Shown here: one piece after another, positions 26,492-39,737 of the stretch
How the letters are laid out: each line of letters opens with the position of its first letter
Numbering within the stretch: position 1 is the first letter of the stretch
Assembly: GCA_001899635.1 (NCBI GenBank)
Contig: MKVQ01000014.1
Coordinates: forward strand, 190,266-254,265
DNA from: Myxococcales bacterium 68-20
GTDB taxonomy: Bacteria; Myxococcota_A; Polyangia; Polyangiales; Polyangiaceae
DNA length: 64,000 bases
Reading direction: 5' to 3'
Position numbers and translations under genes: made by a program
Notes under the pieces: generated by a model
What the model was told of the DNA's origin: nothing
The model's input: only the letters and a program-made list of their open reading frames with translations
The model's database searches: none

Positions 26492-28927
26492 TCAGGCGGG
26501 GGCGACTGCGGCTTCGCCGGCGGCGTGCGTGGCCGAAGGCTCCGTCTCCGGAGTGTCCGCGGACCGCTTGTAACCGCACTCCTTGTCGGCGCACGCGATC
26601 ATCGGCTTGGCCTTGGTGCCGCCGAGGACGACGTAGCTCGCACCGCAGGCGGGGCACGGCTCCGGAAGCGGCTTCTGCCAGAGCTTGAAGTCGCACTTCA
26701 CAGTCTCGTCGTTGTAGCGGCTGCAGCCGTAGAACGTCTTGCCGCCCTTCTTCTTCGGCCGGACCTCGATGATGTCGCCGCCACACTTGGGGCAGGGGAC
26801 ACCGAGCGGCACGGGGCGAGCGTTCTTGCACGCGGGGTAGCCGGTGCACGAGAGGAACTCGCCGTAGCGACCGCTGCGGATCGCCATCTTCTTTCCACAC
26901 TTCTCGCAGTCGATGTCCGTCTCCTTCGGAGGCGGCGCACCGTTGCCGTCGGGCCCCATGTCCTTGGTGGCCTTGCACTTCGGATAGTTGGAGCAGCCGG
27001 CGAACCAGCCGTTCTTCGACCAGCGCTTCGAGAGTGAGCCCTGCGGCAGCGCGCGGAGCTTCTCGTCCTCGGCGTTCGGCCCGCAGCTGTCACAGAGCTC
27101 GTCGAGCGGAACCGGATCCGGGTTCCAGCGCTTGCCCTTCTTGCTCTTGTCGAGCTGGTTCTTGAACTTCTTATAGAAGCGCGAAAGCAGCGTGACGCGC
27201 TCCTCGTTGCCGGCCTCGACCTCGTCGAGCTCCTCCTCCATGCCCGACGTGAACGCCGGGTCCATGAACTCGAGCTGACTCTCGAGGAGGCCGTTCACGA
27301 CCATCCGTCCGAGCTGCGTTGGGCGGAAGCTGCGGCCGTCGACCTTCTCGACGTAGTCGCGCGCCTGCACCTTGCTGATGATCTCGGCGTACGTGCTCGG
27401 GCGGCCGATGCCGCGCTCCTCGAGCTCGCGCACGAGCGAGCCTTCGTTGTAGCGCGCGGGCGGCTGCGTGAACTTCTGCTCGGCGAGCACGCCGGGCGGC
27501 GCGACGAGCTCGAGGACTTCGCCTTCGGAGAGCTCGGGGAGGGAGGCCTCGCCTTCGGGCTCTTCCGCGCGCGCGGAGGCCTCTTCGTTGCTGTCTTCGG
27601 CGCCGGCCTGCTGCTCGTCCGAAGCCGCGCCGTACACCTCGAGCCAGCCGGCGAACTTGAGGACGCGCCCGCTCGACCGGAGCATGTACGTCGAGGAGGC
27701 TCCCGCGGCCTTCGCCTCGGTCTCGACCGACGTCTGGTCGTAGACGGCTTCCTTCATCTGGCTCGCGACGAAGCGATCCCAGATCAGCTTGTAGAGCTTG
27801 AACTGGTCGTCCTTGAGGTGCTTTTTGACCTTGTCGGGCGTGTACTCGAGCGACGTCGGGCGGATCGCCTCGTGGGCGTCCTGCGAGTTCTTCTTCGACT
27901 TGAAGACGTTCGGATCCGCCGGGAGGTTCGTCTTGCCGTACTTCGTCTCGATGAACTCGCGCACCGCGTTGAGCGCGTCGGGCGAGACGCGCGTCGAGTC
28001 GGTACGCATGTACGTGATGAGACCGACGGTGCCGAGGTCCTTGCCGAGCTCGACGCCCTCGTAGAGCCCCTGCGCGATCTGCATCGTGCGCTTGGCGCCG
28101 AAGCCGAGGCGGTTGACGGCGTCCTGCTGGAGCTTGCTCGTCGTGTACGGCGCGTACGTCTTCCGCTTGCGCTCCGCCTTCGTGATCTTCGCGATCGTGT
28201 ACTTCGCGCTCTCGAGGTCCTTCTTCACGCGGGCGGCGGTCTCGCCGTCCTTGACCTCGAGCTTCTTGCCGTTCTCCTGCGCGAGGCGCGCGGCGAACGT
28301 CTGGCGCTTTGCCTTGTCGCCCTTCGCGGCCGACTTCGCGAGCGTCGTTCCGATGTTCCAGTACTCTTCCGGAACGAACGCCTCGATCTCGAGCTCCTTG
28401 TCGACGATGAGGCGGAGGGCGACGCTCTGGACGCGGCCGGCCGAGAGGCCGAACGCGAGCTTCGACCAGACGAGCGCCGACACGTCGTAGCCGACGATGC
28501 GGTCGAGGACGCGGCGTGCACGCTGCGCGTCGTAGAGGTGCTTGTTGAGCTGGCGCGGGGAGGCGACCCCCTTCTGAACGCCGCCCTTCGTGATCTCGTG
28601 GAACTCGACGCGCTTCGCCTTGTCGGGCTTGCCCGTCAGCTCTTCGGCGAGGTGCCAGGCGATGGCCTCGCCTTCACGGTCGGGGTCGGTCGCGAGGAGG
28701 ATGTCGTCGGCCTGCTTCGCCGCGGCCTTGAGCTCCTGGAGGACCTTCTCCTTCCCGGGGACGATCTCGTACGTCTCCTGGAACCCCTTCTCCACGTCGA
28801 TGCCCATCTTCTTGGGCAGATCTTTGACGTGACCCTTCGAGGCGAGGACTTCGTAGCCCGTGCCGAGGTACTTCTTGATCGTCTTCGCCTTCGCCGGCGA
28901 CTCGACGACTACGAGTGTCTTGCCCAT
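26492..28927 (-). CDS. topA: DNA topoisomerase I (type IA)
   Basis: 811 residues from ATG 28927 (an in-frame start at 28963 adds 12 residues of no family character). It relaxes negative supercoils. Toprim domain: Glu9 in VVESPAKAKTI and the acidic triad DPDREGEA at 81-88. The catalytic Tyr306 is in GLITYMRTDSTRVS. The C-terminus has four Cys4 zinc ribbons: CDSCG...CSNYPKC, CEKCGKK...CTGYPAC, CPKCGGD...CSRYNDETVKC and CPACGAS...CADKEC. A Glu/Ala-rich insertion (about residues 440-480, EDSNEEASARAEEPEGEAS) interrupts the body. It lies downstream of dprA, a common bacterial order. Confidence 0.97.
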   Translation of the reverse strand: MGKTLVVVESPAKAKTIKKYLGTGYEVLASKGHVKDLPKKMGIDVEKGFQETYEIVPGKEKVLQELKAAAKQADDILLATDPDREGEAIAWHLAEELTGKPDKAKRVEFHEITKGGVQKGVASPRQLNKHLYDAQRARRVLDRIVGYDVSALVWSKLAFGLSAGRVQSVALRLIVDKELEIEAFVPEEYWNIGTTLAKSAAKGDKAKRQTFAARLAQENGKKLEVKDGETAARVKKDLESAKYTIAKITKAERKRKTYAPYTTSKLQQDAVNRLGFGAKRTMQIAQGLYEGVELGKDLGTVGLITYMRTDSTRVSPDALNAVREFIETKYGKTNLPADPNVFKSKKNSQDAHEAIRPTSLEYTPDKVKKHLKDDQFKLYKLIWDRFVASQMKEAVYDQTSVETEAKAAGASSTYMLRSSGRVLKFAGWLEVYGAASDEQQAGAEDSNEEASARAEEPEGEASLPELSEGEVLELVAPPGVLAEQKFTQPPARYNEGSLVRELEERGIGRPSTYAEIISKVQARDYVEKVDGRSFRPTQLGRMVVNGLLESQLEFMDPAFTSGMEEELDEVEAGNEERVTLLSRFYKKFKNQLDKSKKGKRWNPDPVPLDELCDSCGPNAEDEKLRALPQGSLSKRWSKNGWFAGCSNYPKCKATKDMGPDGNGAPPPKETDIDCEKCGKKMAIRSGRYGEFLSCTGYPACKNARPVPLGVPCPKCGGDIIEVRPKKKGGKTFYGCSRYNDETVKCDFKLWQKPLPEPCPACGASYVVLGGTKAKPMIACADKECGYKRSADTPETEPSATHAAGEAAVAPA

Positions 28928-29043
28928 GCGCACGAACCCCGAGTCTCTGCTGCTGTCGGTCACGTCTTCTTGGATGCTCGAGGGTTGTAGGGAAACCCCC
29001 TATCTGCCCCCGACAAGCCAAGAAGTTGAGTAGTCCTGACGGC

Positions 29044-30045
29044 TTATATCGCAATTCTGCGGCGAAAGAACCCGTCAGGGCCCTCTACTACTACGTCCTT
29101 CAAAGATAGCGTCAAGAGTGCCGTGAGGGTCGAGCTCGTGGGGAGGCCGGCCAGGTCGACGATGGTGTCCTGCTGGATGGGAGCCATCGAAAGGCATGAA
29201 AATACTGACTTTTCGTCCTCCGACCAGGTGCTCGGATCGACCGCGAAAAGGGGGCCGTCCGAATAGGTCTGCCGTTGGGTTGGAGGCTTCCGAAGGGGGC
29301 GCTTCAGCGGCTTGATGCCGCTCCAGGCCGCTGCCGGGTCGCTCATGTCGGGTGGGGGGAGGCGGAGGTCACGAAAGAGCTGCTCCGTCGACCACACCGC
29401 TTCAGCGCCGCCGCGGGCGCCTTCGATCAACGTCCCTTCGTAGAGCTGATCCCATGGCGTGCTCGGGACGAGGAAGAGTCGCCGGCCGAGGTGCCTCGCC
29501 CACGTGATGGCGTTTCGTGAGCCGGACTTCACCCCAGCCTGGACGACGATCACGCACTCGGCGAGCCCGACGAGCACACCGTTGCGGCGGCGCGGGGTGA
29601 GCTTGTCCTTCGGCGTGCCGTCGGGGAACGGCCAGATCATCCGCGATGAGCTCGACTGTTCGAGGTGCTCGAAGAGCGCGTGGTTTTCCTCCGGGAAGAG
29701 CTCGCCGCGACCGGTGCAGGCCACGCACCACGTCATTCCCCCGGCCGCGATCGCCCCATGATGGGCCGCAGAATCGATGCCGACCGCTCCTCCCGACACG
29801 ACGACCACGCCCGCCTTCGCGAGGTGGTACGCGAGCGCGTGGGTGAACCCGCACGCCTCCCTCGGTGCGGATCGCGATCCGACGATCGCGACGGCGCGGC
29901 GCCCGGGTTCGAGCGGACCGGAGAGAGTCAGCGCCGGCGGCTGATCGAGGTGACAGAGAGCGCGCGGGTAGTCGGCGTCGAGTGGAACGAGCTTCACGCT
30001 TCGACGTCGGCCGCGATCTCGGCGCGGTTGTGCGCTTTCGGCCAC
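29044..30045 (-). CDS. dprA: DNA processing protein DprA (Smf)
   Basis: 333 residues from GTG 30045; GTG 29997 (VKLVPLDADYP) is an equally plausible shorter start. DprA protects incoming single-stranded DNA and loads RecA in transformation. The Rossmann-type domain shows VAIVGSRSAPREAC, VVVVSGGAVGIDSAAHHGA, GRGELFPEENH and LTPRRRNGVLVGLAECVIVVQAG, GSRNAITWARHLGR. A C-terminal winged helix follows (TIVDLAGLPTSSTLTALLTL, VVEGPDGFFRR). The N-terminal SAM-like domain of longer DprAs is absent. It precedes topA by 116 bases in the same direction. Confidence 0.93.
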   Translation of the reverse strand: MAESAQPRRDRGRRRSVKLVPLDADYPRALCHLDQPPALTLSGPLEPGRRAVAIVGSRSAPREACGFTHALAYHLAKAGVVVVSGGAVGIDSAAHHGAIAAGGMTWCVACTGRGELFPEENHALFEHLEQSSSSRMIWPFPDGTPKDKLTPRRRNGVLVGLAECVIVVQAGVKSGSRNAITWARHLGRRLFLVPSTPWDQLYEGTLIEGARGGAEAVWSTEQLFRDLRLPPPDMSDPAAAWSGIKPLKRPLRKPPTQRQTYSDGPLFAVDPSTWSEDEKSVFSCLSMAPIQQDTIVDLAGLPTSSTLTALLTLSLKDVVVEGPDGFFRRRIAI

Positions 30046-30119: not shown

Positions 30120-30815
30120 TCACTTCGGCTTCGAGTAGAGCTGGGCGGCGACCGCGCCGCCGCCCTTCTTCGCGTGGAGGTCCACCTTGTACGGCACCGT
30201 CATCGGGATGATCGGGCACATCGGCTTCGGCGATGCTCCGATGACCGCGGTCGGCCCGGTCATTCCGTCCTGGCCCGCGAGGAAGTTGTAGAGCGGTGGA
30301 GCGAGCAGGTTCACATCGAGGTCGGTGACGCCGGCTCCGTACGCGACGATCGTGTAGCACTTGCTCGGATCCATGTTGACGATGAAGCCGACGTGGCCGC
30401 CCTCGCTGAGGTTCCCCTTGGCGACCTGGCCGTCGGGGCTCATCCCCGGCGCGTACTTCAGCGCGGCCGCGCGGAGGCCGGCTTCGGCGGGATCCGCAAT
30501 GGCGGCGGCCGGACCGAGCCAGGCCGAGCCCGCAGCAGCGGCAGCGGCGAGGAGCGACGCGAGCGCGTTCGGATCGCTCGTCGGCACCGCCGCGCCTTGC
30601 GGCGCGGGACAGATCTGCCCGGGCGGGCAGGTCTGCGCGGGACAGGGCTGACCGGCCTGGCAAGGCTGCTGCATCGGCGCGGGCGCCCCGCCGGCGTCGT
30701 TGTCGCCGAGGGCGAAGCTCGCCTTCGCGTCTTGTTTGTTGCCGCCGCACGCGAGCGGCACCGCGACCGAGACCACCAGCAGAGCAGCGACGCCGAAGGA
30801 TCGACCGTGGTGCAT
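30120..30815 (-). CDS. Lipoprotein of unknown function
   Basis: 231 residues from ATG 30815. Lipobox: VAALLVVSVAVPLACGG, Cys23. A Cys/Pro/Gln-rich linker follows (MQQPCQAGQPCPAQTCPPG), then Ala-rich helix and a C-terminal beta-type domain (GGHVGFIVNMDPSKCYTIVA, GVTDLDVNLLAPP) with two more Cys. The last part resembles the small secreted domains of myxobacteria in which a jelly-roll-like sandwich handles a Cys pair, but I cannot name a family. Likely periplasmic or outer-membrane attached. Confidence 0.72.
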   Translation of the reverse strand: MHHGRSFGVAALLVVSVAVPLACGGNKQDAKASFALGDNDAGGAPAPMQQPCQAGQPCPAQTCPPGQICPAPQGAAVPTSDPNALASLLAAAAAAGSAWLGPAAAIADPAEAGLRAAALKYAPGMSPDGQVAKGNLSEGGHVGFIVNMDPSKCYTIVAYGAGVTDLDVNLLAPPLYNFLAGQDGMTGPTAVIGASPKPMCPIIPMTVPYKVDLHAKKGGGAVAAQLYSKPK

Positions 30816-30884
30816 GTGACCGACGTTACGCCTTTTGCGGCCGCCGGCCCAGTCCACGTCCCGCTCCCTCCGGGGGAGGCCGCC

Positions 30885-31736
30885 TCAGTCGCTCTCGCTC
30901 CTCCGGGCCTCGATCGCGCGCTTCAGGTTGGCAAGGCGGAGCGACGCCGATGGATGATGCACGAGGTACGGCGGTGAGAAGCGTCCGAGCGCGATCCGGC
31001 TCTCGATCTCGAACTGCGTGAAGAAGCGGAGGACGGCGAGCGCGCCCCGCACCGATCGCCCGCTCTCGAGCACGCGATCGATCGCCTCCTCGTCGCGCCC
31101 CATCTGGCGCGCAGGGTAGACGTGCTCGGCGCTCTCGGCCGCCTTCCGCTGCTCGGCGCTCGTCCAGACGTCGTCGCCGCTCTCCTTCGTGGCGGTGGGC
31201 TTCGAACACACGAGATCGCCCGCACGGAGACGCGTGAGCTCGTGCGCCACGACGAACGAGAGCGCGTCGGCGAGGCGATCTTCGTACGTCGAAGCGGGCT
31301 TCGTGGCGATGTAGAAGCCGGGCGATGGCGGGAGGAGGCGTCGGCCGGGCGTCTGGGACCGCACGAGGAAGGCGGCGTACTCCTCGACCTTGGACGAGGC
31401 GTTCGCCTCGTCGTAGCTCTCCGCGCGAGCGATGTGACCGAGGAGGCGAAGCATCGCGTCGGACACGAGGACGACGTAGTCGCCATCGTCGTCGCATGCG
31501 ACCTGCGCGAGCGGATCGCTCGTGCTCGTGTCGAACGCCATGTAGACGCCGACGAGCCGTCGCTGATCGTTCGACGGCATCGCCGACAGGAGACGCTTCA
31601 GCTCGGCCTGCGCCTTCACGCGAAGGTCCGAGCCCTCGAGATCCGGGGCGACCTCGTCTGCGCGTGCGGAGGGCGTCCGCACCAGCCCGCAGAGTGCGAT
31701 CAGCAGGGCAACGACGAGGGCTGGGGCCGCGCGCAT
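30885..31736 (-). CDS. Exported M48-like protein lacking the second zinc His
   Basis: 283 residues from ATG 31736, with signal peptide MRAAPALVVALLIALCGLVRTPSARA. The middle carries VVAHELTRLRAGD, where M48 peptidases have HExxH; residue 169 is Arg instead of His. Other M48 marks are kept: QMGRDEEAIDRVLESG (third-ligand helix) and a C-terminal HPSASLRLANLKRAIE, which matches the HPxxxxRxxxL ending of the family. So the fold is M48-like but zinc peptidase activity is doubtful. It follows the GltJ-like gene in the same direction, 65 bases downstream. Confidence 0.75.
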   Translation of the reverse strand: MRAAPALVVALLIALCGLVRTPSARADEVAPDLEGSDLRVKAQAELKRLLSAMPSNDQRRLVGVYMAFDTSTSDPLAQVACDDDGDYVVLVSDAMLRLLGHIARAESYDEANASSKVEEYAAFLVRSQTPGRRLLPPSPGFYIATKPASTYEDRLADALSFVVAHELTRLRAGDLVCSKPTATKESGDDVWTSAEQRKAAESAEHVYPARQMGRDEEAIDRVLESGRSVRGALAVLRFFTQFEIESRIALGRFSPPYLVHHPSASLRLANLKRAIEARRSESD

Positions 31737-31801
31737 GTTTCTCACGTAGCACCACGTCGGCCGCCCTGCTCCGCGGTTGCGGGCTTTTGCGGGGGGGCGG
31801 C

Positions 31802-33490
31802 TTACTGACGGACGAACTTGAAGGGGATGTTGATCGTGGTGTTCGAGCCCGGGGCCGGGAACTGCCACGTCCTCACCTGGCTCTCGATGCACTTCGCGAC
31901 CACGGGGTCGTCGCCGCTGGACGACGTGCTCGAGACGCTGCCGTTCGGGGCGACGTTCGCCGTGACGGTGACGTTGACGCTCGACTTCTGGTCGGCGCCG
32001 CCGCGCTCCCAGCACGTGCGCTTCACGCCGGTGCGGTGCACGGCGACGACGCGCTCGACGCCGGCCTGATCGAGGCCGCCGCCCGAGTTGCTGCCGGGCG
32101 ACGAGTTCGGTCCGACGTTGGGGCCGCCGCTTCCCGTGACGAGGTTGCCGAGATCGAGGCCCTTCTTCTCCGGCGTCTCGGGAGCCTTCGCGGCCACCGT
32201 CTTCGCCGCTACGGCGCCGGTGCCGCCGGTCTTGCCCTTTGGCTCCGCGCTCGTCGCTGCTGCGGGCTCGGCGGAGGGCGTCGGCGAGGGGACGTCGTTG
32301 GTGGCGGCCGGCGTCGCCGGTGCCGTCGTTGCTGCCGGTGGAGGCGGCATCTGGATGACGACGGGGGCGGGGGGGACCTGGGGCCGGAACGCGATGAATG
32401 CGATTCCTCCGCCGAAGCCGAGCGCGAGGACGAGGATCGGCCAGAACCAGAGCGGCACGCCCTTCTTCTGGTAGGGCGGCTGTGCGGCGATCATCGACGA
32501 GGCGGCGGAGCCGTCGGTGAGCGCGGCGATCGGAGCAGGCGGCGCGGGCGCGGCGGGCGGGACCGCGAACGGGTCGACCGCCGGTGACGCGAACGGGTCC
32601 GGCGTCGGTGTCACGAGCGGCGACGAGGAGAGCACCGGAGCGGGTGCTGGCGAGAGCGACGGCGCGAACGCGGCGGCCGAGCCCGCTCCTCCGCCCACGG
32701 GCGCGATCGGCGCGAGCGGGATCTCGTCGATCGACGAGGAGCTCGCGGCCGGACGAAGTGGGACGACGTTGCTCCGCGAGACCGAGGGCGCGGGCGGAGC
32801 CATCGGTCGGGTCGGCGCCGGCGGCGGCGTGTTTCGTGGCGCGGCGGGAGCGGCCGGCGCGGCGGCGGGCTGGCGCGGCGCCGAGGGGACGGAGGGCGAG
32901 CGCGGCGCGACGGGAGGCTCGGGCGGCGCGCCGATGAGCGAAGGACGGTTGCCCTGCGCGGCCTCCTGGATGAGCGCCGCGAGGTCCGGGATGCTCCGGA
33001 TCGGGCGCCACTCCTCGAGGCCTTCTTGCCAGCACAGCGATTCTTCCGTGACGGCGCCGGTGGCGGCCTTGCGACGGAGCTCGGAGATGCGCACGGGGCC
33101 GACGGGGACGCCGTTGATCGCGACGTACCACTCGTCGGTGACACTCAGCTCGATCTGGGACGGACGATCGCCCGACGCGCTCGAGGTCGCGTCCTCGACG
33201 TTGCTCTTGAATGCTCCCGCGAGCGCGCCGCCCGGCGCGACCGAGGCGGCCGGAGCGCGCGGCTTGGCCGCGGAGAGGCTCGTCGCCAGACCGCTCTTCT
33301 GCGGAGGCCGCGGCGCCATGCTGGCCGTCGGCGGGCGAGGAGGGGCGGTCGAGACGCTCGTCTCGGTGACCGCGGCGCGCACCTCGATCTGGTGCCCGCA
33401 CTTGCGGCACTTCATCCGGACGGTCTTGCCCGCCACCTTCTCGTCGGCGATCTGGTACTTCGCCTTGCAGTTGTCACAGAGGAACTTCAC
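31802..33490 (-). CDS. AgmX/GltJ-like protein: zinc ribbon, GYF domain, membrane helix, TonB-like end
   Basis: 562 residues. An N-terminal zinc ribbon has Cys5, Cys8, Cys28 and Cys31 (MKFLCDNCKAKYQIADEKVA, MKCRKCGHQI). A GYF_2 domain follows at about 120-170 (WYVAINGVPVGPVRISELR, LCWQEGLEEWRPI). Next is a long Pro/Ala-rich cytoplasmic linker, one membrane helix (VPLWFWPILVLALGFGGGIA) and an outer Pro-rich stretch. The end is an AgmX/PglI TonB-like domain (VERVVAVHRTGVKRTCWERG, VVAKCIESQVRTWQFP). This order is that of Myxococcus GltJ (AgmX), an inner-membrane part of the gliding machinery whose zinc ribbon and GYF domains bind MglA and its partners. No other glt gene is here, so it may be a paralogue in another envelope-energy system. 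Confidence 0.87.
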   Translation of the reverse strand: MKFLCDNCKAKYQIADEKVAGKTVRMKCRKCGHQIEVRAAVTETSVSTAPPRPPTASMAPRPPQKSGLATSLSAAKPRAPAASVAPGGALAGAFKSNVEDATSSASGDRPSQIELSVTDEWYVAINGVPVGPVRISELRRKAATGAVTEESLCWQEGLEEWRPIRSIPDLAALIQEAAQGNRPSLIGAPPEPPVAPRSPSVPSAPRQPAAAPAAPAAPRNTPPPAPTRPMAPPAPSVSRSNVVPLRPAASSSSIDEIPLAPIAPVGGGAGSAAAFAPSLSPAPAPVLSSSPLVTPTPDPFASPAVDPFAVPPAAPAPPAPIAALTDGSAASSMIAAQPPYQKKGVPLWFWPILVLALGFGGGIAFIAFRPQVPPAPVVIQMPPPPAATTAPATPAATNDVPSPTPSAEPAAATSAEPKGKTGGTGAVAAKTVAAKAPETPEKKGLDLGNLVTGSGGPNVGPNSSPGSNSGGGLDQAGVERVVAVHRTGVKRTCWERGGADQKSSVNVTVTANVAPNGSVSSTSSSGDDPVVAKCIESQVRTWQFPAPGSNTTINIPFKFVRQ

Positions 33491-33592: not shown

Positions 33593-35116
33593 TCAGAGGA
33601 GCCGCATCATGTGAGCCTTGATCGACTCACGCGTCTCGTTGTCCGGGGAGGTGTGAACGCACCGCTCCCACATCTCGACGGCCTTGTTCTTGAACCCGGC
33701 CTTTTCGTAGAGGACGGCGAGGTTCTTCAGCGCGGGGAAATGGCGCGGATTCAGGTCGACCGCGCGTTCGAGCTCGGTGATCCCGTCGTAGAACTGCCCG
33801 CGTTTTCCGTAGATCAGCGCGAGGTGGTAACGCAGCCGGTAGGCGAGCGGGTCGATCGAGATGCCCTTCTTGAGCAGCCCGATCGCGAGGTCGACCTCGC
33901 CGTTCTTGTACGCGGCGATCCCCTCTTCGAGGTAGCGCGCCGCGGTCTTGTTGATCAGCTCCGGATCGTGGGGCGGTACGGTGCCCGGCTTGTTCTCGAG
34001 GAGCCGGTCGACTCTAGAGATGAGGTCCGCGATGCGGAACGGCTTCTCGATGTAGTCCTCGATGCCGTAGTTCGTCTTGAGGTCCTCGGCGATGCGCCAG
34101 CCGCGGTACACGGCGCTCATCATCAGGATGGGGATCGCGCCGTACTTCGCGCTCCCCTTGATGCGGCGTGCGATGTCGAAGCCGTGGACCTCCGGGAGCA
34201 TCGCGTCGAGCAGGATGAGGTCGGGCGTCTCTTCCTTCACCAGCCGGAGCGCGATGAGACCGCGGTCGGCCTCCATGACGGCGTGCCCGCGGTCGGTGAG
34301 GAGACGGCGCACGAGCTTGCGGATGTCATCCTCGTCGTCGACCACCAGGATGCGCTTGCCCGACTTGCCGAGTCTGACCGACGCGTTCGGATCGAGCCCG
34401 GCGGCGTTGCGGAGCTCGTCGGTGAGCATCTCGACGCGCGAGACCTCGTCGCCCATCTCGCCGAACTCGGTCGTCGAGAGTGCGGCCTCCGCGGCCGACT
34501 CCTGCATCTGCTGATCGACGACGACCGACGGCGCGCCACCGGGCTGGACGCTCTCGCGTTCGCGACGGTCCTGCAGATGCTCGGGCTCGGGTGCGGGCGA
34601 GCCCACGGCGGGTGCGCGGCTGGCCGAGGGGCGGGGCGCGGTCGGCCCGGCGTAGTGCTTGAGGCCCTGCTCCTTCGCGTCGTAGGCCTCGCGGATCGTC
34701 TTCTCGAGCGTCGTCGAGATCGCGACGTAGGGGTAGATGCGCCGGCCGGTGACGAACTCCAGCTCGTCGATCACCCGCTTGTCCTGCGGGTTGCCCATTG
34801 CGAGGAACAAGCGATCGTCGCGGACCAGGACGGGCAGCACGCGGCTCGACTCCGCGACCTCGCGGGGCACCATGTCGAGGTGCTCGAGCGCGAGTGAGAG
34901 TTGGTTCAGGTCGATGCCGGGAACGCCGAACTGCTCCGACAGCGCTCGCAGCACCTCGGTCTCCGGCACGACGCCGCTGGAGGCGATGCGCGATGCGAGC
35001 GGGACCCCGTCGCGAGCCGTCTTCTGCGTGGCGAGCTGCTTGTCGAGCTCCTCTTGCGAGATGAGTCGGCGCTTCAGGAGGATGCGGCCGATCGGTTTCT
35101 TCTCGTCGGACGACAT
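33593..35116 (-). CDS. Response regulator: MshEN-type domain, receiver, TPR
   Basis: 507 residues. Residues 5-150 are an MshEN/GSPII-E N-terminal-like domain (IGRILLKRRLISQEELDKQL, FGVPGIDLNQLSL, AMGNPQDKRVIDELEFVTGR), a fold known in type IV pilus and secretion ATPases to bind c-di-GMP. A linker follows, then a receiver (RILVVDDEDDIRKL; phospho-acceptor Asp304 in LILLDAMLPE; Lys358 in IEKPF). Residues 385-500 are TPR units (AIAAYKNGEVDLAIGLLKKG; GQFYDGITELERAVDLNP). No DNA-binding or enzymatic output is present. It begins 10 bases after the tgt stop, so it is likely the third gene of queA-tgt. The output is probably protein binding through the TPRs. Confidence 0.88.
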   Translation of the reverse strand: MSSDEKKPIGRILLKRRLISQEELDKQLATQKTARDGVPLASRIASSGVVPETEVLRALSEQFGVPGIDLNQLSLALEHLDMVPREVAESSRVLPVLVRDDRLFLAMGNPQDKRVIDELEFVTGRRIYPYVAISTTLEKTIREAYDAKEQGLKHYAGPTAPRPSASRAPAVGSPAPEPEHLQDRRERESVQPGGAPSVVVDQQMQESAAEAALSTTEFGEMGDEVSRVEMLTDELRNAAGLDPNASVRLGKSGKRILVVDDEDDIRKLVRRLLTDRGHAVMEADRGLIALRLVKEETPDLILLDAMLPEVHGFDIARRIKGSAKYGAIPILMMSAVYRGWRIAEDLKTNYGIEDYIEKPFRIADLISRVDRLLENKPGTVPPHDPELINKTAARYLEEGIAAYKNGEVDLAIGLLKKGISIDPLAYRLRYHLALIYGKRGQFYDGITELERAVDLNPRHFPALKNLAVLYEKAGFKNKAVEMWERCVHTSPDNETRESIKAHMMRLL

Positions 35117-35126
35117 CGTTCCTACT

Positions 35127-36362
35127 TCAGGAGGCTACCTTATTTTCTCTGTTGAGGTCGGCTAGCGTGCGCGCCTTGTACGCGGGCCAGGTTCCGGCCC
35201 GGATCGCCGCTCGCGCGCCTCGGACCAGCTCCCCGTACCAGTGCAGGTTGTGCAGGCTGAGTAGCCTTAGAACGGTCATCTCGCCGGCAAGATAAAGGTG
35301 CCGGAGGTAGCCGCGCGCGTACCCGCCGGCGCAGCAGGGGCAGGTGCACTCCGGATCGATTGGCTGGCGGTCGTCCTTGTAGCGAGCCTGCTTGATGATG
35401 ACGCGCCCGAAGCGCGTCAGGGCCTGTCCGTTCCGCGCGTTGCGCGTCGGCAGCACGCAGTCGAACATGTCGACCCCGGCGTCGATCGCCTCGAGGAGGT
35501 CCTGGGGCGTGCCGACGCCCATGAGGTACCTTGGCCGTTCGGGGTCGAGCGCGTGGGCGACCTCGTGGAGCGTCTCGTACATCTTGGGGATCGGCTCGCC
35601 GACCGAGAAGCCTCCGAGCGCGAGCCCGTCGAAGCTCGGATCGAGGCCGGCGAGCTCCTCCGCGTGGGCGCGCCGGAGATCGGAGAAACAGGCGCCCTGG
35701 ACGATCCCGAAGAGCGCCTGGCCTTCGGGACGTTCGGTCGCGAGCGCGCGCCTGGCCCAGCGGGTCGTCCGCGAGACGGCAGCCTCGACCGCAGCTCGCG
35801 GCGATTCGCCGGGCGGGCAGACGTCGAGCTGCATCTGGATGTCCGCTCCGATCTTGCCCTGCACGCGCACGGCGACCTCGGGGGAGAGGTGATGGCGGGT
35901 GCCGTCGAGGTGGGAGCGGAACGTGAAGCCCTCCTCGTCGAGCGTGACGAGCGATTTCCGAGGGAGCGCAGCGACCGAGGAACGAGACTGCGGAACGGCG
36001 AGGCCGCCGGTGGGCGCAGGGCGGGGGAGATTGCCGCCGAGCGAGAAGGCCTGGAACCCTCCCGAGTCGGTGAGCATCGCGCGCGGCCACCGCGTGAAGC
36101 CGTGGAGCCCGCCGAGCGACGACACGATGTCGGGCCCGGGCCGCAGCCACAGGTGGTACGTGTTGCCGAGCATGATCTGGGCGCCCGTCGACGCGACGTC
36201 CTCGGCGGTGAGGCCCTTCACGCTTCCTTGCGTGCCCACGGGCATGAAGGTCGGCGTCTCGACCTCGGCGTGAGGTGTGGTCAGGATCGCGGCGCGCGCG
36301 TGCCCGCTCTCGGACGATGCGAGGACGCGAAACGCGAAGCCCTTGGCGCGAGGGGCCGTCAT
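35127..36362 (-). CDS. tgt: Queuine tRNA-ribosyltransferase (Tgt)
   Basis: 411 residues. It exchanges guanine-34 for preQ1 in tRNAs with GUN anticodons. Active-site Asp99 is in AMLTDSGGFQAFSL; GGFSVGEP, LPTRNARNGQALT and the zinc site CTCPCC with its following His are present. Unlike standard Tgt, about 28 extra residues (roughly 110-138, NLPRPAPTGGLAVPQSRSS...) stand between FSLG and the conserved EEGFTFRSHLDG. The reading frame stays open, so this is an in-frame insertion, not a frameshift. The start overlaps the queA stop by four bases (36359-36362). Confidence 0.95.
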   Translation of the reverse strand: MTAPRAKGFAFRVLASSESGHARAAILTTPHAEVETPTFMPVGTQGSVKGLTAEDVASTGAQIMLGNTYHLWLRPGPDIVSSLGGLHGFTRWPRAMLTDSGGFQAFSLGGNLPRPAPTGGLAVPQSRSSVAALPRKSLVTLDEEGFTFRSHLDGTRHHLSPEVAVRVQGKIGADIQMQLDVCPPGESPRAAVEAAVSRTTRWARRALATERPEGQALFGIVQGACFSDLRRAHAEELAGLDPSFDGLALGGFSVGEPIPKMYETLHEVAHALDPERPRYLMGVGTPQDLLEAIDAGVDMFDCVLPTRNARNGQALTRFGRVIIKQARYKDDRQPIDPECTCPCCAGGYARGYLRHLYLAGEMTVLRLLSLHNLHWYGELVRGARAAIRAGTWPAYKARTLADLNRENKVAS

Positions 36363-37459
36363 GCCATTGCCTCCACGTGGTGCTCGTCCGTGCGCGCCAG
36401 CAGCATCGCGTCGCCGTACGAGAAGAAGCGGTAGCGATCCTTCACCGCGGCCCGGTAGGCAGCGAGGACCCGTTCGGTCCCCGCGAATGCCGACACCAGC
36501 GCGAGGAGCGTCGACTTCGGGAGGTGGAAGTTCGTGAGCAGTCGATCGACGACGCGAAAGCGATGTCCCGGCTGGATCAGGATGCGCGTCTCCTCTGCAC
36601 AGGGCCGCACGTAGCCGTCACGGGACGGATCGGCGGCCGACTCGAGCGCCCGCACGACGGTCGTCCCCACGGCTACGACGGGCGCGCCTCGCTCGCGCGC
36701 TCGCGCGATGGCGGCAGCGAGCGTCCGGGGTACCTCGAAATACTCGGCATGCATCACGTGATCGTCGAGGTCCTCTGCGGTCACGGGCTGGAAGGTCCCG
36801 AGGCCGACGTGAAGCGTACACGATGCGATCTCGCATCCGCGTTCTTCCAGGCGGTGAAGGAGTGGTTGCGTGAGGTGGAGGCCGGCCGTGGGCGCGGCGA
36901 CAGCGCCGGGAGCGCGCGCGAACACGGTCTGGTAGCGCTCCTCGTCGTCGGTCGAGACCTCGCGCTTGATGTACGGCGGAAGCGGGACCCGGGCTGCCGC
37001 TTGGAGGGCGTCGTCGAGCGTGAGCGCGTCGTCCCGGGACGAGAGCCGCACGAGGAAGAGCCCATCGGGGGCCTTGCCGTCGACCTCGACCAGCAGCGGG
37101 CCGGCCACGATGCGGGTGCCGGCGCGGAGCGCCTTCGAAGCACGGGCCATCGCACGCCAGCGCTCGCGAGGCGGCCTCGCTTCGTCGTCGGACGCGCCGT
37201 CGGGATCCTTGCGAACGAGGAAGACCTCCGCCTTACCGCCGCTGCCCTCCTTCGTTCCGAGGATGCGGGCACGGATCACCTTCGTGTCGTTGACGACCAC
37301 GAGGCTCTCGTCGGGGATGTAGTCGGCGAGCTCCTTGATCCGGGAGTGGACGAGCTCGCCGTCCTGCACGACCATCAGGCGTGCCAGCTCCCGCTCGGTC
37401 GCGGGCTCCTGCGCAATCAGCTCGGGCGGTAGGTGAAAAGAGAAGCGCTCGACGCGCAT
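36359..37459 (-). CDS. queA: S-adenosylmethionine:tRNA ribosyltransferase-isomerase (QueA)
   Basis: 366 residues, normal size. It turns preQ1-tRNA into epoxyqueuosine-tRNA by adding a ribosyl part from SAM. Family motifs: FHLPPELIAQEPATERELARLMV, YIPDESLVVVNDTKVIRARILG, YIKREVSTDDEERYQTVFA (Pro-Tyr-Ile motif), GAVAAPTAGLH(L), LHVGLGTFQPV, VGTTVVRALESAA and TNFHLPKSTLLALVSAFAG. It heads the operon queA-tgt-response regulator and is coupled to tgt. The upstream 200 bases hold a strong inverted repeat, listed separately. Confidence 0.96.
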   Translation of the reverse strand: MRVERFSFHLPPELIAQEPATERELARLMVVQDGELVHSRIKELADYIPDESLVVVNDTKVIRARILGTKEGSGGKAEVFLVRKDPDGASDDEARPPRERWRAMARASKALRAGTRIVAGPLLVEVDGKAPDGLFLVRLSSRDDALTLDDALQAAARVPLPPYIKREVSTDDEERYQTVFARAPGAVAAPTAGLHLTQPLLHRLEERGCEIASCTLHVGLGTFQPVTAEDLDDHVMHAEYFEVPRTLAAAIARARERGAPVVAVGTTVVRALESAADPSRDGYVRPCAEETRILIQPGHRFRVVDRLLTNFHLPKSTLLALVSAFAGTERVLAAYRAAVKDRYRFFSYGDAMLLARTDEHHVEAMA

Positions 37460-37670: not shown

Positions 37671-38162
37671 CTAACGGCGCTGGGCGACGGCGGCGCTTTC
37701 GGCGACCGTCCGTGAGTCGTCCTCGAGCAGCGCCGGCTGCCGAGGAGCAATGCCCGACGGGCGCTCGACGCACCAGAGTCGGCGGCTGCTCGGCGGGGAG
37801 GAGGCCTTCGCCGAGACGAAGTCGACGACCTCGCGCAGGTCGTACGGCTTGGGGATGAAGCCGCTCACGCCGCAATCGGCGCGCTCGAGTTGGCGCTCGC
37901 TCAAGTGGTACGAGCTCGTGAGGAGCACGCGCATCGCCGGGTACGCGTCGCGGAGCTCTCGAGCGAGCTCGAGCCCGTTCGCACCTCCCTCGGACCGGAT
38001 CATCAGGTCGATGATCGTCAGCGCGACCGGCCGTGAGGCCAGCACCTCCCGAGCGCCGTTTGCGTCCCTCGTGACGACGACGTCGAACCCTTCGACGCGC
38101 AGTGCACTCGCAAGGATGGCTGCATCGGCAACAACCATATCGACGAGCAAGATGGTCATCAT
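37671..38162 (-). CDS. Stand-alone receiver-domain protein with altered acidic pocket
   Basis: 163 residues. The receiver fold is clear: TILLVDMVVADAAILASALR, phospho-acceptor Asp52 in LTIIDLMIRSEGG, VLLTSSYHLSE and Lys105 in GFIPKPYD. Normally two acidic residues follow strand 1 (VDDE); here Asp8 is followed by Met9, with the next acid at Asp13, so magnesium binding may be weak. After residue 120 comes a Pro/Ser/Arg tail without a known domain. No partner kinase is adjacent; the NtrC-type gene upstream is on the same strand but 216 bases away. Confidence 0.78.
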   Translation of the reverse strand: MMTILLVDMVVADAAILASALRVEGFDVVVTRDANGAREVLASRPVALTIIDLMIRSEGGANGLELARELRDAYPAMRVLLTSSYHLSERQLERADCGVSGFIPKPYDLREVVDFVSAKASSPPSSRRLWCVERPSGIAPRQPALLEDDSRTVAESAAVAQRR

Positions 38163-38378: not shown

Positions 38379-39737
38379 TCAGCTGCGGCTGTCGTACGTG
38401 ATGCCGAGACGGGTCATCTTCCGCCAGAGCGTCGTCGCGGAGATCCCGAGCACCTCGGCGGCCTTCTCGCGGCTGCCGTCGGAGTCTCGAAGGGCGCCCT
38501 CGATCGCCTGGCGCTCTGCCGCGTCGACGACGTTCGCGAGCGTGCGGCCCGCGTACGGAGCCGAGGGATCGTCGGGGCGTCTCGCCGGAAGGACGTCGTC
38601 CTTGGTGATGACGCCGTTCTGAACGAGCGCGACGGCCTGCTCGATCATGTGCTCGAGCTCGCGGATGTTGCCCGGGAAGTCGTAGTTCTGAAGGGCCTCG
38701 AGGACGTTCTCGTCGAGTCGCGCCTTCGTCCCCATCTTCTTGTTGTACTTGTCCATGAAGAACGCGAGGAGGTCGGGCAGGTCCTCGCGGCGCTCGCGCA
38801 GCGCGGGCAGTTGGAAGCGCGCAACGTTGAGCCGGTAGTAGAGATCCTGGCGGAAACGCTTCTCGGCGATCGCGCTGAGCAGGTCCTGGTTCGTCGCGGC
38901 GATGATGCGGACGTTGACCTGGATCGGCTTGTTCTCGCCGACGCGCCGGACCTCGTTCTCCTGGATGGCGCGGAGGAGCTTTGCCTGGAAGGCGAGGGAC
39001 GTCTCGGCGATCTCGTCGAAGAAGAACGTGCCGCCGTCGGCCTCTTCGAAGAGGCCTTTGCGCGCGTTCACGGCGCCGGTGAAGGACCCCTTCGCGTGCC
39101 CGAAGAGCTCGCTCTCGAGGAGGGTGTCCGTGATCGCCGCGCAGTTGATCGGCACGAACATGCGGTCGGCGCGGCGGCTGTTGGCGTGGATGGCCTTCGC
39201 CACCAGCTCCTTACCCGTCCCGCTGTCACCGGTGATGAGGACGATGGCGTCCGTTGGAGCGATGCGGACGATCCGACCGAGCACCTCGCGCACGCTCCGC
39301 GACTGGCCGACGATGTTCTCGAACTTGTAGCGGTCCTTGAACTCGCTCGCGAGGAACGCGACCTCGCCGGCGAGGCGCCGGTTGTCGAGCGCCTTGCCGA
39401 CCTTCACGAGCAGCTCCTGCTCGGTGAACGGCTTCTGGATGTAGTCGAACGCGCCGTAGCGCATCGCTTCGACGGCGCTCTCGATCGTGCCGTACGCCGT
39501 CATCACGATGATCTCGGTCATCGGCTGCGCGCCCTTCACGGCGCGGAGGACGTCGATGCCGTCCTTCGATCCCATGCGGAGGTCGGTGACGAGCACGTCG
39601 TAGGCGCCGGACGATCCGCGCTCGCAGCCCTCTTCACCGCTCTGCGCTTCGTCGACTTCGAAGCCCGCTCCACGGAGCATCATCGCCAAGGTCGTGCGCA
39701 TGTTGCGCTGGTCATCGACGATGAGGAGCTTCGCCAT
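38379..39737 (-). CDS. NtrC-family sigma-54-dependent response regulator
   Basis: 452 residues. Receiver: LLIVDDQRNMRTTLAMML, phospho-acceptor Asp52 in LVTDLRM, Lys102 in IQKPF. AAA+ domain: Walker A GDSGTGKE at 170-177, the sigma-54 contact loop GSFTGA at 217-222, GGTFFFDEIAE (Walker B), then LRERREDLPDLL. A C-terminal Fis-type helix-turn-helix (IEGALRDSDGSREKAAEVLGISATTLWRK) binds DNA. It activates sigma-54 promoters on phosphorylation. No cognate histidine kinase is nearby. A 13-bp tandem repeat lies about 120 bases upstream of its start. Confidence 0.95.
   Translation of the reverse strand: MAKLLIVDDQRNMRTTLAMMLRGAGFEVDEAQSGEEGCERGSSGAYDVLVTDLRMGSKDGIDVLRAVKGAQPMTEIIVMTAYGTIESAVEAMRYGAFDYIQKPFTEQELLVKVGKALDNRRLAGEVAFLASEFKDRYKFENIVGQSRSVREVLGRIVRIAPTDAIVLITGDSGTGKELVAKAIHANSRRADRMFVPINCAAITDTLLESELFGHAKGSFTGAVNARKGLFEEADGGTFFFDEIAETSLAFQAKLLRAIQENEVRRVGENKPIQVNVRIIAATNQDLLSAIAEKRFRQDLYYRLNVARFQLPALRERREDLPDLLAFFMDKYNKKMGTKARLDENVLEALQNYDFPGNIRELEHMIEQAVALVQNGVITKDDVLPARRPDDPSAPYAGRTLANVVDAAERQAIEGALRDSDGSREKAAEVLGISATTLWRKMTRLGITYDSRS

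Follow-up and report, generated by a model that had tools for sequence, protein, structure and literature searches.

The window analysed here, a stretch of 64,000 nucleotides on one contig (C14) of the 11.9 Mb, 52-contig assembly of Myxococcales bacterium 68-20, carries on its minus strand, from upstream to downstream, queA, tgt, P0003, P0001, an M48-like gene, a putative lipoprotein gene, dprA and topA (Table 1). The P0001 gene runs from a GTG start at 33490 to a stop at 31802 with a third-position GC of 0.90, and a forward-strand reading of the same interval was ruled out as it contains a stop. A stand-alone receiver-like ORF of 163 aa (37671-38162) lies between queA and an NtrC-type regulator (38379-39737).

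Table 1. Genes and domains around P0001, with positions counted from the first nucleotide of the window.
Feature	Position	Strand	Details
topA	26492-28963	minus	profile match
dprA	29044-30045	minus	profile match
Putative lipoprotein	30120-30815	minus	by eye; flanked by the M48-like gene and dprA
Secreted protein, degenerate M48-like	30885-31736	minus	HELTR replaces HExxH
P0001, GltJ-like, 562 aa	31802-33490	minus	zinc ribbon / GYF_2 / Pro-rich / TM / TonB-like tail
P0001 TonB/TolA-like C-terminal domain (myxo_SS_tail)	31814-32074	minus	residues 473-559; Cys493 and Cys534
P0001 predicted membrane helix	32387-32443	minus	residues 350-368; hydropathy peak 2.04
P0001 GYF_2 domain	32981-33130	minus	residues 121-170; Pfam 5.5e-17
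P0001 zinc ribbon	33386-33478	minus	residues 5-35; Zn_ribbon_4 3.2e-10; Cys5, 8, 28, 31
P0003, MshEN - receiver - TPR, 507 aa	33593-35116	minus	Pfam; 102 bases upstream of P0001
P0003 receiver	34010-34351	minus	residues 256-369; Response_reg 6.2e-23; Asp260, Asp304, Ser334, Lys358
P0003 MshEN match	34670-34930	minus	residues 63-149; Pfam 4.3e-19
tgt	35127-36362	minus	profile match
queA	36359-37459	minus	profile match

The GltJ-like domain order that a sequence-only reading had proposed for P0001 was borne out from the zinc ribbon to the TonB/TolA-like C-terminus, as were the four claimed cysteines (5, 8, 28 and 31) and the GYF-type WYVAINGVPVGPV, which begins at residue 121. Both the Zn_ribbon_4 and the GYF_2 matches lie above their Pfam cut-offs and give P0001 the N-terminal combination of a four-Cys zinc ribbon and GYF found in GltJ. 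The linker (residues 178-342) consists of 27% Pro and 23% Ala, and the predicted membrane helix ahead of the TonB-like tail is the single strong hydrophobic stretch of the protein. The top two PDB matches in a phmmer search were both AgmX/GltJ domains from M. xanthus, 7zok (zinc ribbon, 5.5e-10) and 7z3c (GYF, 1.3e-8). With the GltJ equivalog model NF033761 (NCBIfam), P0001 reaches 66.2 bits against a curated cut-off of 450, and annotation by that model would therefore overlook it. By analogy with GltJ, the N-terminus would be cytoplasmic and the tail periplasmic.

The tail matches the NCBIfam model myxo_SS_tail, which describes the AgmX/PglI tail, at 6e-12 (45.5 bits, cut-off 40), and with the GYF_2 match the profile likeness on which the sequence-only reading had staked its proposal is present; the Pfam TonB model gave no match on P0001 at E up to 0.1. 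From 28 aligned tails, AlphaFold2 (mean pLDDT 82.6) predicts a helix-strand-strand-helix-strand fold, for which the best 22 rows of a VIA-align search were all TonB/TolA C-terminal domains with Z scores from 9.2 to 5.6 (9.2 and 9.0 for the two over 8, 7.5 to 5.6 for the next 20). Foldseek likewise placed a TonB domain first, at E 5.3e-3, and returned no match under E 0.001. As modelled, the P0001 tail resembles the TonB/TolA C-terminal fold, with a Cys493/Cys534 pair that is invariant in all 28 aligned tails, three of which are from GltJ. At E up to 0.01, myxo_SS_tail matches 30 places in the host genome, 22 of them above its cut-off; such tails therefore probably have roles in many processes.

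The gene downstream of P0001 had been taken for an M48-like protein and not a glt gene, of which the distant likeness and the absence of a glt gene hold, but the protein has no Pfam match and its HExxH site is degenerate. Near relatives carry RELTH or RELAH at this site (L216, L221, L235), and HELAH is found in L096, a homologue with 24% identity. Judging by these residues, it appears to be a protease in decay or put to a new use. An overlapping ORF at 30826-31755 was rejected as the downstream gene, its frame being wrong by codon-position GC. The adjoining lipoprotein candidate had no Pfam match over the cut-off, and no glt genes were found among the scanned neighbours of P0001.

GYF_2 matches were found at five places in the host genome, four of them over the cut-off, and a zinc ribbon precedes the GYF domain in the same frame only in P0001 and in a protein on contig C3; it is absent ahead of GYF at the places on C16, C22 and C49. 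The count of paralogues suggested by the sequence-only reading thus comes down to one other zinc-ribbon/GYF protein in this genome, with none over the GltJ cut-off, and the C3 protein belongs to a third family, whose members are found in Myxococcaceae too, alongside GltJ. Across the order, a 71-aa piece of P0001 spanning GYF found a match at 2e-11 or better in 52 of 57 genomes, weaker matches only in G022 and G028, and none in G018, G026 and G055. G026 and G055, both near-complete and of the same genus, lack a GYF match yet carry GltI-like and MglA genes, which means that the complex may exist without a P0001-type protein. A scan of M. xanthus strain AM003 for GYF (E up to 0.001) gave GltJ, one gene with GYF but without a zinc ribbon and one of the third type, three matches in all. 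Over the phylum, the GltJ model exceeded its cut-off in none of 235 genomes among the four candidates scored per genome, which is weak evidence. Haloferula rosea (L199, 9467-10537) encodes two adjacent small GYF proteins in a genome with six GYF matches.

A first tree, built on the zinc ribbon and GYF only (99 rows, 111 columns, with identical zinc-ribbon plus GYF letters taken once), separated a GltJ clade of 29 rows (support 100/99), a clade of 54 rows containing P0001 (98/83) and the third family with 15 rows (99/86), leaving the long row L212 unplaced. The second tree added the tail, left blank in 8 of its 104 rows where it was weak or cut at a contig end, and paralogues from five Myxococcaceae genomes and others (218 columns). 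It recovered the P0001 clade (clade A, 51 rows, 98/88), a GltJ group of 32 rows that includes three Myxococcaceae paralogues without zinc ribbon (100/99), and the third family (B) with 21 rows from Polyangia-type and Myxococcaceae genomes (97/84). The rows nearest to P0001 belong to two Labilithrix MAGs and one Myxococcales MAG, which makes a Labilithrix-like member of the Polyangiales the probable host. Six long-branch rows (L212, L118, L215, L120, L210, L104) were left out of the later trees, and L332, from the same genome as L215, was added. L219 had first been classed by a GYF-score rule as an orphan of the P0001 clade and was moved to the third family after both trees had placed it there. 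Under its old label the third family is not one side of a branch, and a tree holding the 20 rows together is not rejected (p-AU 0.369); under the new label and without tail columns, the third family would stand at 95/69 and the P0001 clade at 97/78.

In the tree comparison with GltJ proposed by the sequence-only reading, the GltJ clade excludes P0001, and the third-family branch (97/84) leaves clade A with GltJ. The third family is present in both classes, and if it is old, clade A and GltJ would be class-level descendants of one gene. A rival split that joins the GltJ group with the Myxococcaceae members of the third family (37 rows) is not rejected (p-AU 0.386), and for this reason orthology between P0001 and M. 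xanthus GltJ, as far as sequences speak to it, is favoured only. Both trees rule out the C3 protein as the nearer relative of GltJ.

Several observations on individual loci accompany the trees. The paralogues with GYF and tail but without a zinc ribbon that sit in the GltJ group come from Myxococcaceae-type genomes (L323, 5516-7495; L326, 9026-10705; L328, 8747-10771). The record behind L162 (BNCN01000006.1) bears the title Comamonas sp. KCTC 72670, and its GltJ locus, 97% identical in GYF to the M. xanthus query, clusters with Pyxidicoccus and Myxococcus; the genome is probably mislabelled or contaminated. The third family has a second conserved neighbourhood, with a secreted protein beside it (L080, 7856-11716; L114, L116, L121, L125) and, by eye, etfBA-like genes adjoining in several genomes.

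In 46 of 54 clade-A loci the next gene upstream, in the same orientation, is of the P0003 type, at gaps of -79 to 187 bases; the sequence-only reading had made no mention of this conserved neighbour. Adjacency was called at phmmer scores over 100 bits with gene starts from a simple ORF caller, and the 54 loci count L215, L120, L210 and L104 in and L332 out; L218 becomes a 47th partner locus once a 60-codon ORF, probably spurious, is disregarded. Seven members have no partner beside them, namely L100, L102, L103 and L236, which form one clade, and L095, L215 and L120. A small lipoprotein-like gene abuts in the first four and in L095. In L093 a similar-looking gene (by eye) stands on the near upstream side of the partner, so that these lineages have probably lost the partner from between the two genes. 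In L215, a Sorangium MAG, tgt occupies the partner position, and L120 comes from a genome with two copies, of which L119 has the partner. No partner was detected within 1.5 kb of any of the 32 GltJ-group rows or the 21 third-family rows, and five Myxococcia genomes, with 150 of about 290-440 candidates scored in each, returned only receiver or MshEN matches (best 68.4 bits).

The two signalling domains of the partner differ in their conservation. Asp260, Asp304, Ser/Thr334 and Lys358 are each present in all 48 partners, and from its residues P0003 would be a phosphorylatable receiver, with the acidic pocket, Asp, Ser/Thr and Lys in place. The c-di-GMP motif of MshEN, given as RLGxx in the accessible part of PMC5013675, is largely lost, with the motif-I Arg kept in 1, the motif-II Arg in 27 and the motif-II Gly in 3 of the 48 partners (positions taken from one MAFFT alignment), and several members are without most of the motif. 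P0003 itself does not have the two RLGxx motifs with Arg and Gly of an MshEN receptor, as both Arg positions (8 and 39), which lie N-terminal of the Pfam MshEN match, are Pro; PilB structures match its residues 8-147. With the receiver residues intact and the MshEN motif mostly lost, the partner looks like a phosphorylatable adaptor without most of the nucleotide site.

Gliding-core genes were found on other contigs of the host genome. MglA on C16 shares 84% identity with M. xanthus MglA and is directly preceded by an MglB-like gene (101 bits), and C6 encodes a GltC-like protein (302 bits, model positions 58-619 of 622), a GltG-like protein (311 bits, 3-647 of 650), a weak GltE-like match (56 bits) and a GltI-like giant TPR protein of 3,811 aa, which is 26% identical over 3,127 alignment positions to the 3,139 aa of M. 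xanthus GltI that L160 contains. The host GltC-, GltE- and GltG-like proteins and MglB stay below the curated equivalog cut-offs. The sequence-only reading had placed P0001 outside a gliding cluster and pointed to glt and mglAB loci as a check; the position is confirmed, and gltC-, gltG- and gltI-like genes, the weak gltE match and mglBA all turned up elsewhere.

In M. xanthus, gltI and gltJ are MXAN_4863 and MXAN_4862, as listed in the available portion of PMC3169522. GYF plus zinc ribbon follows right after gltI in five of five Myxococcia control loci examined here. No GYF gene was found beside the host gltI-like gene, which is followed by an unrelated gene on the opposite strand, and a scan of the order's 57 GltI-like loci, limited to the 30 best, gave no GYF match within about 1.5 kb of gltI (two of the 30, L277 and L288, are shorter than the others). 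The controls, chosen from 32, had 10-kb flanks as against 1.5 kb for the order loci, but GltJ starts 63 to 178 bases after gltI in all five, so that the comparison holds despite the flank difference. A zinc-ribbon pattern search of the 30 order loci gave one match, in L297, whose sequence is unlike the GltJ ribbon. Of 32 GltJ loci, 31 have a long ORF immediately ahead of GltJ and in the same orientation, with at least about 970 aa and in most cases truncated by the locus edge. GltI-like matches occur in all 57 genomes of the order, but as there are several copies per genome they are no proof of a complete gliding system.

We read P0001 as the Polyangia counterpart of GltJ, working with the glt core and MglA/MglB and controlled by the phosphorylated receiver-TPR adaptor, a reading that in our judgement stands evenly between right and wrong. 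The cytoplasmic zinc ribbon and GYF domain of this inner-membrane protein would read cytosolic signals, and its periplasmic TonB-like tail might couple to envelope-spanning Glt parts in the periplasm or outer membrane, the glt core and MglA/MglB being those encoded on the other contigs. P0003 would be a cytosolic adaptor that binds the N-terminal part of P0001, and the phosphorylation state of its Asp304 might then decide on assembly or disassembly of the complex. The GltJ switch reportedly involves MglA-GTP, AglZ and MglB. In M. xanthus, AglZ and FrzS consist of a receiver plus coiled coil and carry pseudo-receivers, and a phosphorylated partner may gate the switch of P0001 much as such receiver-coiled-coil proteins do. 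A function shared with GltJ, the contact between P0001 and P0003, MglA binding and the direction of control are what we infer here. A bolder version, which we consider rather unlikely, holds that the focal-adhesion switch of Polyangia is wired directly to two-component signalling by a phosphorylatable receiver-TPR adaptor with a decayed MshEN scaffold that docks on the zinc ribbon/GYF. That this adaptor replaces the receiver/coiled-coil adaptor of Myxococcia, with the GltJ counterpart encoded outside the gliding cluster, is part of the same version and equally doubtful.

The sequence-only reading had instead regarded P0001 as a paralogue wired to another energised process. As proposed there, this is unsupported, given the glt-like genes and mglBA in the genome and the third-family placement of the C3 protein; with that family also alongside GltJ in Myxococcaceae, the simpler view is that P0001 is the GltJ counterpart of Polyangia, encoded away from the cluster. 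In a sharper form, the idea of a paralogue still has perhaps a third of our belief: P0001 and P0003 would couple a two-component signal to another envelope process via a TolQR/ExbBD-type motor, and the Polyangia gliding complex would do without GltJ or use the third-family protein. The conserved pairing with a receiver protein, the lack of glt neighbours, the GltI-like and MglA genes kept without a GYF match in G026 and G055, the AU test that leaves the rival tree standing and the 30 myxo_SS_tail matches would all fit. However, the closest solved relatives of P0001 are GltJ domains, the two-class third family lies on one side of the 97/84 branch and leaves clade A with GltJ, and no match in the genome exceeds the GltJ cut-off, the C3 protein being the only other with zinc ribbon and GYF.

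The pairing itself could also be accidental, with P0001 a GltJ counterpart and P0003 merely a neighbour kept by gene order and not by joint function. We consider this improbable, since one-strand adjacency at short gaps recurs in 46 of 54 loci, and loci of other families without a tgt, queA, dprA or topA match nearby keep the pair in most cases, even though other genes are conserved in the loci of the window's own family too (tgt and queA, joined in one locus by dprA and topA) and the partner is absent, with another gene abutting, in L095 and the clade of L100, L102, L103 and L236. Far less probable still is that the pair senses c-di-GMP via MshEN and relays it to a GltJ-like switch. The Pfam match of MshEN would agree with this, as would Bd2402, an MshEN-containing response regulator that, in the accessible text of PMC5013675, binds c-di-GMP tightly; the same text allows that binding may not need perfect motif conservation. 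Motif loss across the 48 partners and the two Pro in P0003 speak against it, and c-di-GMP sensing by P0003 as an established reading was set aside on that loss.

What is understood of Agl-Glt gliding comes mainly from M. xanthus. Should Polyangia retain the Glt core and MglA while encoding the GltJ counterpart at another place, next to the gene of an intact receiver protein, the control layer of bacterial focal adhesions would have been rewired around a core that was kept. The P0001/P0003 pair offers a defined two-gene target for the control of a GltJ-type switch and a starting point for asking how these bacteria might control their movement on surfaces. Homologues of gltJ in Myxococcales are already known; a 2011 report, in its available part, notes them and sometimes several copies of this gene group per genome (PMC3169522). 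Neither the receiver-TPR pair nor a GltJ counterpart away from the gliding cluster was described in the accessible portions of the literature searched, and no paper there linked GYF to gliding and myxobacteria or to GltJ and MglA. What appears to be new here, at the level of sequence, is the pairing with a receiver-TPR gene and a GltJ-like gene outside the gliding cluster.

Among known systems, AglZ and FrzS of M. xanthus are possible functional analogues of P0003, which differs from them in having MshEN and TPR and the full receiver residue set (48 of 48 partners). AglZ is described in the accessible part of PMC4488436 as a cytoplasmic part of the gliding complex, and the available passages of PMC12288465 name GltJ among the MglA gliding effectors, with MreB, AglZ and AglR. 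Regulators of the Bd2402 type place MshEN inside a response regulator, as P0003 does (PMC5013675, accessible part), but compared with these and with the MshEN of PilB/MshE, the P0003 family is mostly without the c-di-GMP-motif Arg and has TPR added. TonB/TolA C-terminal domains, represented by the 22 structural rows, have the same fold as that predicted for the P0001 tail, which differs in giving no Pfam TonB match and in its invariant Cys pair. GltJ/AgmX of M. xanthus (MXAN_4862) has zinc ribbon, GYF_2 and TonB-like tail in the order seen in P0001, whereas P0001 scores below the equivalog cut-off, does not lie beside gltI and is paired with a receiver-TPR gene.
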